From the NCBI RefSeq assembly GCF_000759855.1, contig NZ_JNAI01000010.1, positions 124,001-188,000 of the forward strand: a DNA stretch of 64,000 bases, in the 5' to 3' direction. Source of the DNA: Prochlorococcus marinus str. MIT 9107. GTDB taxonomy: Bacteria; Cyanobacteriota; Cyanobacteriia; PCC-6307; Cyanobiaceae. A program made the position numbers and the translations under genes. Positions within the stretch are counted from its first letter, which is position 1; each line of letters opens with the position of its first letter. A model generated the notes under the pieces. The model worked only from the letters and a program-made list of their open reading frames with translations. It ran no database searches and had not been told where the DNA came from. Positions 48,859 through 50,748 of this stretch are shown one piece after another.

Positions 48859-49299
48859 AATTTACTTAGAAATAGCCATTTTGAAACCAAAAGAAAATAT
48901 ATGTTGACTACATGAAGTTAAAGATCAATTTAGTTTTCTAATTTGTTTAATAAAGAATTTCATAAAACTGTTCTGTATACTGTACTTTAAACTTATCAAA
49001 AATTAAATTCAAGCCTTTATCGATATATTTTTAAGTAAATATATATTGTTCTAGTTACTGTTCTAAATACTATTAAGAATTAAATTTCTTTATTTTTTAT
49101 CATTTAGTCGCATTCAAAGCAAATTTCAACATCATTTTTATTTAAATAAATACCATGAGAAAAAATCTAAATTTTAACCTCTATTATTTGATCATAATTT
49201 TTTTTAAAAAAACCAAAAAATTAGAGGAATCTTACCACCACAAAAATATTTTTTACCATATTCCAATCAATTTCATAAATAGATTGAATTCAAATCAAT
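48859..49299. other. Long AT-rich non-coding stretch before the tRNA-derived scar
   Basis: Very AT-rich, with no convincing gene. A 48-codon frame begins at 49155 but is low complexity and probably noise. The stretch contains three similar 15-mers (48967, 49045, 49057; see repeat entry). In a genome this compact, 440 bases without a gene suggests eroded accessory DNA. Confidence 0.6.
48967..49071. repeat. Three related 15-bp direct repeats
   Basis: ACTGTTCTGTATACT (48967-48981), ATTGTTCTAGTTACT (49045-49059) and ACTGTTCTAAATACT (49057-49071) share the frame A-Y-TGTTCT-NNN-TACT roughly. The last two sit 12 bases apart. They could be recombinase arm-type or repressor sites of an element, but AT-rich chance matches are possible. 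Confidence 0.45.
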
Positions 49300-49322
49300 A
49301 AAAAAGACCCTATTGTGGGTCT
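49300..49322 (-). terminator. Rho-independent terminator of decayed tRNA-Asn copy
   Basis: On the minus strand a stem AGACCC/GGGTCT with a 6-base loop (49305-49322) is followed by a run of six T (complement of A at 49300-49305). It stands about 30 bases past the decayed tRNA 3' end at 49350, the same spacing as the terminator of the intact tRNA-Asn (50631-50651). It is therefore read as a copied tRNA terminator. Confidence 0.75.
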
Positions 49323-49349
49323 CAAGAAGTTTTTGATAATTAAATTAAA

Positions 49350-49368
49350 CTCCCCTGGCGATAGTCGA
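49350..49368 (-). repeat. Decayed tRNA-Asn 3'-end remnant (distal copy)
   Basis: The + sequence CTCCCCTGGCGATAGTCGA matches the intact tRNA 3' end at 15 of 19 positions (CTCCCCGGGCGGGATTCGA at 50677). With the copied terminator just outside, this looks like the old far-end attachment site left by an element that integrated at tRNA-Asn. Confidence 0.7.
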
Positions 49369-49426
49369 GGCAAGGTTTGTTGAAGTAAGTTGACTGCTGT
49401 TGAATTAATAAAAATGAAAAATTTGG

Positions 49427-49443
49427 AAAAATGGCCCATTTTT
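49427..49443. promoter_or_regulatory. 17-bp palindrome upstream of the AlpA-like gene
   Basis: AAAAATGGCCCATTTTT is a perfect inverted repeat around a central C, 20 bases before the HTH gene start. It could be an operator for that protein, or a small hairpin. No -10 or -35 can be assigned with confidence. Confidence 0.5.
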
Positions 49444-49463
49444 AACCCCTTTTCAAATTCATT

Positions 49464-49658
49464 ATGAACCTTCAAAATCGTCATTTTTTGAGCATCAAAG
49501 AAGTATCAAATCTAATTGGAATTTCTGTTTCAACTATCAATCGCCAAGTAGAAAAAGGTACATTTCCTCCAAAACACAAATTATCTGCTCAGAAAATTGT
49601 TTTTCTTAAATATCAAATCGATCAGTGGATAGATGGGAAAAGAGATAAGTGGAGGTAA
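49464..49658 (+). CDS. AlpA/excisionase-like HTH protein, 64 aa
   Basis: The protein is a single winged-HTH of the AlpA/Xis (MerR-like) type: HFLSIKEVSNLIGISVSTIN at 7-26 is the helix-turn-helix, then RQVEKGTFPPKHKLSAQKIV gives the wing, and a YQIDQWIDGKRDKW tail follows. Such proteins switch on or assist the integrase of small mobile elements and prophages. No integrase is found beside it, so it is likely an orphan left from a tRNA-targeted element. It lies between the two decayed tRNA ends. Start ATG at 49464, without a clear ribosome site. Confidence 0.8.
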   Translation: MNLQNRHFLSIKEVSNLIGISVSTINRQVEKGTFPPKHKLSAQKIVFLKYQIDQWIDGKRDKWR

Positions 49659-49708
49659 TTAAAAGTCACGTGATATATTATCTGCAAGTAATGCCCGTAG
49701 TCTCTTAA

Positions 49709-50377
49709 ATGTTTTGTAGTGAATGTGGGAAAGAAATCAAAGATAATTCCAAATTCTGCAGTTTTTGTGGTACCAAGCAAACCTTAACTACTAATGATCA
49801 AAGTAAATCTAATTTAAAAAATGATTCTAAAAACTTAATTTATGATGGTTTTAAAAGAATAAAAGAATATCAAATACAAGAATTTAAAGATTTTAAAAAA
49901 GATGAGATTAAAAAAATAATTCTTAATGAAATTAATTTAACCTCTGCTGAAGAGGCAGAAAAATCTTATTTTTTAAAAAATATAATTCTCCAAAGATTTA
50001 TTAATAACGAATACGAAGGGAAAGAGGGGAAACTATATGAGGATTTAATTTTTAAAAACTTCTCAAAAGAAATGAAAAAATTAATCAAAAAGAAATTAAC
50101 AGGAAAAGATAAAGACCCCAGTACAATGGAAAAAGTTTTTGGATTTTTATTTGGAATATGGATTATTAACACCTTTCTTGCGAATCTTATCCTCGTTGGG
50201 TTTGGGAAAGAAGGTTGGTATATTCCTGGAATTTCAGACATAACTCCAGTAATTGTTATGGAAAAGTATATCTTTAGTGACAAAACAGAACTTAGATTAG
50301 GAACTCAAGCAGAAATATGGAGATTAAACAGGACGCAAAGAAGAATTAAAGAGGGCATCGATTATTTTCTTAAATAA
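49709..50377 (+). CDS. Zinc-ribbon protein of unknown function, 222 aa
   Basis: The N-terminus is a zinc-ribbon: C3, C6, C17 and C20 in MFCSECGKEI and KFCSFCGTKQ. A Lys/Asn-rich charged central region (25-135) follows, then a hydrophobic segment FLFGIWIINTFLANLILVGF (about 144-163) that is probably membrane-inserted, and a short C-terminal domain rich in Arg and Glu. I know no function. It sits between the tRNA remnants, 50 bases after the AlpA-like gene, so it is the likely surviving cargo of the element. Confidence 0.75.
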   Translation: MFCSECGKEIKDNSKFCSFCGTKQTLTTNDQSKSNLKNDSKNLIYDGFKRIKEYQIQEFKDFKKDEIKKIILNEINLTSAEEAEKSYFLKNIILQRFINNEYEGKEGKLYEDLIFKNFSKEMKKLIKKKLTGKDKDPSTMEKVFGFLFGIWIINTFLANLILVGFGKEGWYIPGISDITPVIVMEKYIFSDKTELRLGTQAEIWRLNRTQRRIKEGIDYFLK

Positions 50378-50450
50378 TTTACCCATTTTAAAAACCCCAA
50401 GTATCATGACATCGCATGAAGTTACTTGAAGTCTCTTGGCGTTTATTAAA

Positions 50451-50471
50451 CTCCCCGGGCGGTTTTCGAAC
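50451..50471 (-). repeat. Decayed tRNA-Asn 3'-end remnant (proximal copy)
   Basis: CTCCCCGGGCGG, two changed bases, then TTCGAAC on the + strand is the acceptor 3' strand and T-loop region of tRNA-Asn (19 of 21 bases equal to 50677-50697). A GTCTCTTG at 50431 also matches the tRNA's downstream flank (50645) but with 12 fewer bases between. This copy is better preserved than the distal one and may mark a second, younger integration. Confidence 0.8.
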
Positions 50472-50530
50472 AAGTCTCTAATGACTTGGTATGACTACTC
50501 TTGAACACCTATTTCGTTATATTTTGTGAA

Positions 50531-50552
50531 TTACACTAACTTTACACTAACT
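50531..50552. repeat. Perfect 11-bp tandem repeat near tRNA-Asn
   Basis: TTACACTAACT occurs at 50531-50541 and again at 50542-50552. It lies between the proximal remnant and the intact tRNA, where arm-type sites of an integrase would be expected. Confidence 0.65.
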
Positions 50553-50630
50553 ATTTTTAAAAACTGATGGTTATTATTGGAATGTACTGAATATCTTGTT
50601 TCCTTCTAAACCTAGTAATAGTCACAAAAA

Positions 50631-50651
50631 AAGAGACTTATGAGGTCTCTT
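50631..50651 (-). terminator. Rho-independent terminator of tRNA-Asn
   Basis: Minus-strand stem AAGAGAC/GTCTCTT with a 7-base loop, followed by a run of T (complement of A at 50626-50632), begins 26 bases past the tRNA 3' end. It is one of very few clear terminators in the window. Confidence 0.8.
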
Positions 50652-50676
50652 GATTGTTTTTAAATTTGTTAAGGAA

Positions 50677-50748
50677 CTCCCCGGGCGGGATTCGAACCTG
50701 CGACCAATCGATTAACAGTCGATCGCTCTACCGCTGAGCTACCGAGGA
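50677..50748 (-). tRNA. tRNA-Asn(GTT)
   Basis: The minus strand folds as a full 72-base cloverleaf: acceptor TCCTCGG with CCGGGGA plus discriminator G, D-arm AGCTCAGCGGTAGAGC, anticodon loop with GTT in GACTGTTAATC, and T-arm with GGTTCGAATCC. CCA is not encoded (TTCC follows). It is the apparent attachment target of the element to its left in + coordinates. Confidence 0.97.

Follow-up and report, generated by a model that had tools for sequence, protein, structure and literature searches.

Tandem integrase-less cassettes probably stacked at the 3′ end of tRNA-Asn in Prochlorococcus marinus MIT 9107

Downstream of the 3′ end of tRNA-Asn(GTT) in Prochlorococcus marinus str. MIT 9107, a 64,000-nucleotide stretch of the genome (contig NZ_JNAI01000010.1, positions 124,001 to 188,000; hereafter the window, in whose coordinates its features are given) contains a series of what are very probably site-specific integrative elements, stacked on one another at the tRNA, the cassettes most likely having been inserted one after another. 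Empty, filled, and integrase-bearing alleles of the same site in relatives indicate that the repeated copies of the tRNA 3′ end in the window are site-specific insertions, and the two units that these copies delimit are, on sequence comparison, best described as non-autonomous integrative cassettes in tandem that resemble cis-mobilizable elements (CIMEs). Insertion at a tRNA 3′ end with bounding direct repeats had been proposed in the original prediction, which was made from the sequence of the window alone, and is supported by these alleles.

Core Repeats and Alleles of the tRNA-Asn Site

The tRNA lies on the minus strand and the extra copies lie downstream of its 3′ end. The repeated 13-nt core, CGCCCGGGGAGTT, consists of the last 11 nt of tRNA-Asn and 2 nt beyond it.

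50677..50748, minus strand: tRNA-Asn(GTT), the integration target (ARAGORN; 72/72 identical in the relatives listed)
50675..50687, minus strand: core copy 1, formed by the tRNA 3′ end (its last 11 nt and the 2 nt beyond; core search of the window)
50449..50461, minus strand: core copy 2, 0/13 mismatches (core search of the window)
49348..49360, minus strand: core copy 3, 1/13 mismatches (core search of the window)

Three same-strand core copies compare with 0.06 expected in the window by chance, three were reached in 0/100 dinucleotide shuffles, and no further window site was found at up to two mismatches. The intact tRNA with two 3′-end copies in the same orientation was thus confirmed, and similarity no better than chance, named beforehand as grounds for giving up the prediction, was not what the copies showed. 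Over 21 nt of the tRNA 3′ end the proximal copy agrees at 19/21 positions, as predicted, and the distal copy, which had been put at 15/19, is present in the same orientation with a measured agreement of 17/21. The left halves of both extra copies are unlike the tRNA and unlike each other, which is the pattern that a crossover within the core would leave, each left half having come in with its element.

A search of 200 Prochlorococcus genomes matched the region in 198, some of the matches being weak. Ranked by similarity to the ATP-binding cassette (ABC) protein of the window, the top 80 of 401 supplied the set of named loci (L numbers) on which occupancy rests, a set that leans to near relatives; the count was made in the 61 of them with both tRNA-Asn and rpaB in reach (rpaB being the label given here to the response regulator at window 47314-48096), the other 19 being left out. 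Extra core copies occur in 31/61 of these loci, copies with more than two mismatches being missed by the search. The remaining 30/61 have no extra copy, and the alignment with relatives that had been called for therefore finds that the stretch is not in all strains. Altogether, the 61 loci hold 40 sense and 0 antisense copies, against 0.05 expected in shuffles that, like those used below for left-end terminators, preserve base composition only. The tRNA-to-rpaB distance is 1055-1131 nt in 24/30 no-copy loci; in 19/31 occupied loci the distance to rpaB, counted from the last copy, is 1079-1114 nt, within the empty-site range. Similarly, TATA follows the core in 22/30 no-copy loci and the last copy in 17/31 occupied loci, and follows the tRNA core in none of the occupied loci. 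With the class of tyrosine-integrase elements at tRNA 3′ ends the window stretch shares direct repeats of the tRNA 3′ end that bound inserts, together with the existence of empty sites; the integrase gene inside the element is lacking in the window units. Among the cargo at tRNA-Asn in L051, L067, L089, L102, and others are genes for type I restriction, methyltransferases, and helicases, and relatives also carry cargo genes of sugar- or sulfotransferase type; in some strains the site may serve as a defence island.

Integrase-Bearing Elements and the Source of Integrase

Tyrosine-integrase elements of 7-15 kb occupy the tRNA-Asn site in some relatives. For example, the site in L111/L119 and that in L083/L120 each hold a single insert, of 7949 and 7990 bp respectively, with a tyrosine integrase and with the canonical flank behind it, and another integrase-bearing element, of 14,637 bp, lies at tRNA-Asn in L108/L121. 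The L111 integrase matches PF00589 (E 5e-8) and has relatives in 19/200 genomes at E up to 1e-10. At L204, in the single-contig genome G050, tRNA-Asn is followed by a 7.1-kb element with integrase and AlpA, then by units of 623 and 1498 bp in that order and by the chromosome, which makes a tandem array that includes an integrase element. A match to AlpA, a family of small excision factors, lies 47-98 bp from the integrase match in 9/21 integrase loci (two of them weak: L212 and L218, E 0.001). The tRNA in the stretch is tRNA-Asn in 5 of these 21 loci and tRNA-Ser in 10 (GCT 8, TGA 1, CGA 1), while an Asn-type core without a tRNA is present in L209 and L211 and neither is found in 4. The relatives of the tRNA-Asn integrases that share a stretch with tRNA-Ser are in L206, L212, L214-L218, and L220 (GCT), L205 (TGA), and L221 (CGA), and the same element type may, on these sequences, use several tRNAs. 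In L205 (G050:C1:617001-637000), tRNA-Ser(TGA) stands between an L111-type integrase, at C1:626770-628029, and a 406-aa protein related to the core recombinase described below, at C1:631525-632607, so that two kinds of recombinase flank one tRNA. A small serine recombinase (L083:12921-13499; PF00239, E 1e-23) is present in the interval with tyrosine-integrase elements, with relatives in L043, L108, and L111. Carriage by viruses was considered and set aside: the integrase of L204 and a single left-end pattern, the two queries tried besides AlpA (see below), matched no viral contig.

No integrase gene is present within units 1 and 2 of the window, in agreement with the original prediction. The whole MIT 9107 genome holds one PF00589 match, at C6:154681-155847 (L118:9682-10851), a 389-aa gene away from the tRNA-Asn site with a conserved neighbourhood whose genes read as hemH-like and cobO/pyrH-like. 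It is present in 22/22 near-complete genomes of a 61-genome draw, and neither a tRNA nor a core (at up to one mismatch) occurs in the 20-kb stretch around it; by these indications it is a core-genome tyrosine recombinase. With this core gene as the only PF00589 gene, integrase for the units would have to come from an element that visits the genome or was there before. Action of the genome's own PF00589 protein on the units in trans was considered and found no support, given the core neighbourhood and the lack of tRNA or core nearby.

Anatomy of the Units

Core-to-core units from the window and relatives number 61 distinct sequences, four pairs of identical units having been collapsed. Fifteen of the 61 are shorter than 300 bp (mini units) and 46/61 are at least 570 bp long. 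An integrase match is found in 5/61, a figure that is if anything too high since loci L204-L223 were chosen for an integrase or AlpA match, and in 3 among the 52 distinct units not chosen in this way; AlpA is found in 20/61, of which 17 have no integrase. Left ends were compared for 60 units and for the left end of the third element of the window described below (n=61), and a hairpin plus T-run starts 16-27 nt past the core in 47/61 of them, against 0.5 in shuffles. The terminator sequences differ between unit families, which indicates that each element carries its own, unit-specific terminator for the tRNA. In the window, the hairpins with T-runs reported earlier are present at 50631-50651 and 49304-49323; that one was copied from the other does not hold, as their sequences differ, and the larger hairpin at 50392-50434, behind core copy 2, had been overlooked.

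Many right ends show, by eye, two family-specific direct repeats of ~10 nt located ~65-100 nt before the core. The repeat-bearing stretch recurs at the left end in 27/45 long units, against 99/1980 cross-pairs (alignment score >=30), and the paired repeats are putative integrase arm sites. A long relative matching at both ends was found for 9/15 mini units, and in 7/9 of these cases the left-end and right-end matches have 9 nt or more of the mini unit in common.

Unit 1, which is nearest to the tRNA, is such a mini unit.

50449..50674, minus strand: unit 1, geneless, 226 bp from core to core, apparent solo-arm product (unit comparison)
50631..50651, minus strand: terminator hairpin from unit 1, now behind the tRNA (hairpin plus T-run search)
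50529..50551, minus strand: arm-like direct repeat of unit 1, GTTAGTGTAAAGTTAGTGTAATT (found unchanged at each end of the L223 1802-bp unit; putative integrase-site role)

Over its first 168 nt, unit 1 is 79% identical to the left end of the L223 1802-bp unit, and over its last 113 nt it is 91% identical to the right end. Both matches overlap at the 23-nt GTTAGTGTAAAGTTAGTGTAATT, of which a mini unit of L055 and the two ends of the long L223 unit have identical copies; this long unit is itself without an integrase match. The simplest reading of these sequences is that unit 1 is the remainder of a longer element after deletion between identical arm repeats, resembling a solo long terminal repeat (LTR); the direction of change would be from long to short, the reverse order being a gain of cargo by a mini unit. 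In L014 and L071 the distal core is missing and a unit-1-type left end runs straight into the chromosomal flank (interval 841 nt), apparently an allele left after deletion.

Unit 2 carries the genes of the array.

49348..50448, minus strand: unit 2, 1101 bp core to core, with terminator, cargo gene, AlpA, and right end (unit comparison)
50392..50434, minus strand: terminator-like long hairpin at the unit 2 left end (fold -15.3 kcal/mol, z -2.9; missed by the simple rule)
49709..50377, plus strand: zinc-ribbon cargo gene, 222 aa, N-terminal ribbon (PF13240, E 1e-8)
49464..49658, plus strand: AlpA-like excisionase gene, 64 aa (PF05930, E 8e-9; phrog_66)
49426..49453, minus strand: repeat-like stretch near the unit 2 right end, a weak candidate arm site (by eye; no left-end partner)

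The family matches bear out the AlpA/excisionase-like and zinc-ribbon genes that had been read in the insert. The AlpA product is a small helix-turn-helix protein of PF05930 (35.6 bits, against a cut-off of 21), and the neighbouring integrase partner seen in 9/21 integrase loci of relatives is lacking in the window. The left end of unit 2 recurs at 76% in L094 and at 92-94% in L222, L223 (first unit), L097, L040, and L046, and its AlpA and right-end block recurs in the same six at 77-94%; the AlpA start lies 116-117 nt from the right end throughout this family, and the zinc-ribbon gene is not common to the units that share these ends and AlpA. As a clue to function, this cargo gene yielded outside its own genome only short ribbon matches, in 4/200 genomes, and AlpA gave five matches to viral contigs, at 36% identity. 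Against seven intact relatives the unit 2 AlpA has a ratio of nonsynonymous to synonymous substitution rates (dN/dS) of 0.17-0.30 (63 codons, few sites), and the corresponding pooled ratio of proportions (pN/pS) is 0.24, taken over non-independent pairs; a stop codon interrupts 2/10 related copies. Selection on AlpA probably acted in the integrase-less state, because an integrase match is found in 0/10 units with a left end of the unit 2 type. Unit 2 thus seems to be a non-autonomous cassette that has been maintained, and not simply a wreck. The term decayed, offered earlier for the insert as a whole, suits unit 1 and the third remnant and suits unit 2, whose AlpA family is under purifying selection, less well.

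Beyond unit 2 there is probably a third element whose far end has been lost, and this is the least certain part of the array.

48931..49347, minus strand: probable third-element remnant (72% to the L107 unit, E 2e-12; flank homology begins beyond)
49255-49347, minus strand: element-type left end of the third element (same L107 comparison)
49304-49323, minus strand: terminator in this left end (hairpin plus T-run search)
48096..48930, no strand assigned: chromosomal flank common to empty-site relatives (82% to L048 over 842 nt)

Homology to the empty flank starts at ~48930 in L048, the best of seven empty loci, and at 48862-48866, 64-68 nt further in, in the other six. The inner border of the remnant is uncertain (48866-48930), because short, weak, AT-rich matches to the empty flank (21-56 nt) occur within it. 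The successive insertions that the original prediction allowed for are supported by the alleles in relatives, and a single insert gives way to two units and a probable third remnant.

Proposed Mechanism and Alternative Explanations

In the mechanism proposed here, a tyrosine integrase would recombine the 13-nt core at the tRNA with its counterpart on an incoming circular element. Insertion would restore the tRNA and displace the old downstream DNA behind a second core copy, and the incoming element would supply its own terminator ~24 nt behind the core, such that termination of the tRNA transcript could survive the insertion. Complete elements of 7-15 kb in relatives would bring the integrase, in part with AlpA as a neighbouring excision factor. 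The window units, having none, would depend for any movement on an integrase supplied in trans, or in cis by a later neighbour. Unit 1 would be the product of recombination between the two arm repeats of a longer element, and unit 2 a compact cassette in the order core, terminator, cargo, AlpA, right end, core.

Several observations weigh against this account. No element integrase is left in this genome, and one base is changed in the distal core (core copy 3) that bounds unit 2. In 12/31 occupied loci the tail departs from the empty-site length (778-1026 or 1189-4562 nt), and TATA is missing after the last copy in 14/31; the off-length tails are read, from the sequences, as deletions or missed copies. 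The simple terminator rule fails in 14/61 left ends, including that of unit 2, no long relative matching at both ends was found for 6/15 mini units, and a search for left-end arms in unit 2 and in nine other units sharing its left end came up empty. The changed core base and the lack of this arm in unit 2 and its family also tell against unit 2 as a maintained cassette.

A more far-reaching version of the stacked-element account, put forward only tentatively, is that AlpA cassettes form a working class of minimal non-autonomous elements which use the integrases of other elements with nothing but the 13-nt tRNA-Asn core in common, AlpA biasing the reaction toward excision. If true, the diversity of arm repeats around a fixed core would reflect a contest between elements with private integrases and borrowing cassettes, and the solo-arm minis would be debris. 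Among the rival readings of the array, a plausible, though not favoured, one is that all window units are dead, immobile remnants of autonomous elements that lost their integrase, and that the stack is a scar. Such a reading accommodates the absence of integrase from the units of a genome whose sole PF00589 gene is core, the geneless unit 1, the altered distal core, the stops in 2/10 related AlpA copies, and the lost end of the third element, but it fits poorly with the dN/dS of 0.17-0.30 of the unit 2 AlpA against seven intact relatives when 0/10 left-end relatives have an integrase, and with a single cassette backbone that has different neighbours in L094, L222, and the window.

Spread of the cassettes between strains by homologous recombination over the shared tRNA and flank, with the cores as a record of old insertions, is unlikely as the whole explanation. 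Conserved flanks make exchange of whole alleles possible, and nested arrays of mixed units fit shuffling, but the origin of clean, core-bounded single inserts with an integrase (L119, L120) is left unexplained, and such exchange can operate alongside stacking by site-specific insertion. That the inserts are tycheposons, or pieces of them, moved by a tycheposon recombinase appears improbable: the genus, the tRNA target, and the variable cargo agree, and seven tRNA genes are described as being used in Prochlorococcus (PMC10872708), yet units of 0.2 and 1.1 kb fall below the 4-200 kb quoted in that account and the window units have no recombinase. Chance similarity or partial duplication of the tRNA was rejected as exceedingly improbable on the copy counts for the window (0.06 expected) and the 61 loci (40 sense, 0 antisense, 0.05 expected); a duplication could yield a repeat of the 3′ part of the tRNA alone, but the left halves of the copies are unit-specific and the empty and filled alleles contradict it. 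Stacking of integrative elements at the tRNA 3′ end thus remains the preferred reading.

Significance and Comparison With Known Systems

With inserts in 31/61 sampled relatives, the tRNA-Asn site is a much-used gateway through which flexible genes enter an abundant marine phototroph. The combination of core, terminator, arm pair, and solo-arm deletion offers a signature for cassettes too small for gene-based searches, and this anatomy makes it testable whether cassettes with an excision factor alone ride foreign integrases.

Solo LTRs are ends-only copies produced by recombination between repeats, and miniature inverted-repeat transposable elements (MITEs) are short non-autonomous derivatives. 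Unit 1 resembles both, as an ends-only leftover or a short non-autonomous derivative, by analogy only: its element is of the site-specific integrase type and not a retroelement or DDE (Asp-Asp-Glu) transposon. Tycheposons, reportedly described by Hackl et al. in 2023, are likewise cargo-bearing and tRNA-associated in Prochlorococcus, as far as they are summarised in the sources cited here, and a tRNA gene borders the window array. Their size is quoted as 4-200 kb, with a tyrosine recombinase (PMC10872708; PMC11389934), whereas the window units measure 226 and 1101 bp (0.2 and 1.1 kb) and contain no tyrosine recombinase of that type, the single PF00589 gene of the genome being core.

Closer parallels are found in the accounts, as far as they were available, of elements that accumulate at one target. 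Integrative and conjugative elements (ICEs), integrative and mobilizable elements (IMEs), and CIMEs include tRNA 3′ ends among their targets, and CIMEs, which are flanked by attachment (att) sites and lack integration genes, can be stacked with ICEs and IMEs by tandem accretion (PMC5704250). Units 1 and 2 have cores at both ends, no integrase, and a shared tRNA target at which they stack, but they are far smaller (226 and 1101 bp) than the CIMEs of that account, and differ in the retained AlpA, the terminators of their own, and the solo-arm minis. Similarly, an additive flexible genomic island at tRNA-Lys of Methylopumilus has repeated copies of the last 20 nt of the tRNA and units of 330 bp to 42 kb with variable genes (PMC10872708); it shares the repeated tRNA ends and the variable size and gene content, in a different organism and at a different tRNA, and arms, unit-borne terminators, and solo units do not feature in the part of its description consulted. 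Picocyanobacterial integrase islands at tRNA-Phe and tRNA-Cys have variable cargo and a small serine recombinase nearby (PMC10187409), as does the interval in L083, but these islands, known here from their description, use other tRNAs. In the open-licence literature no account was recognised of a Prochlorococcus tRNA-Asn island, of solo-arm products, or of cyanobacterial arm repeats. Relative to these systems, as partially described in the sources above, integrase-less AlpA cassettes, terminators carried by the units themselves, and solo-arm minis appear to be the new features of the tRNA-Asn array.

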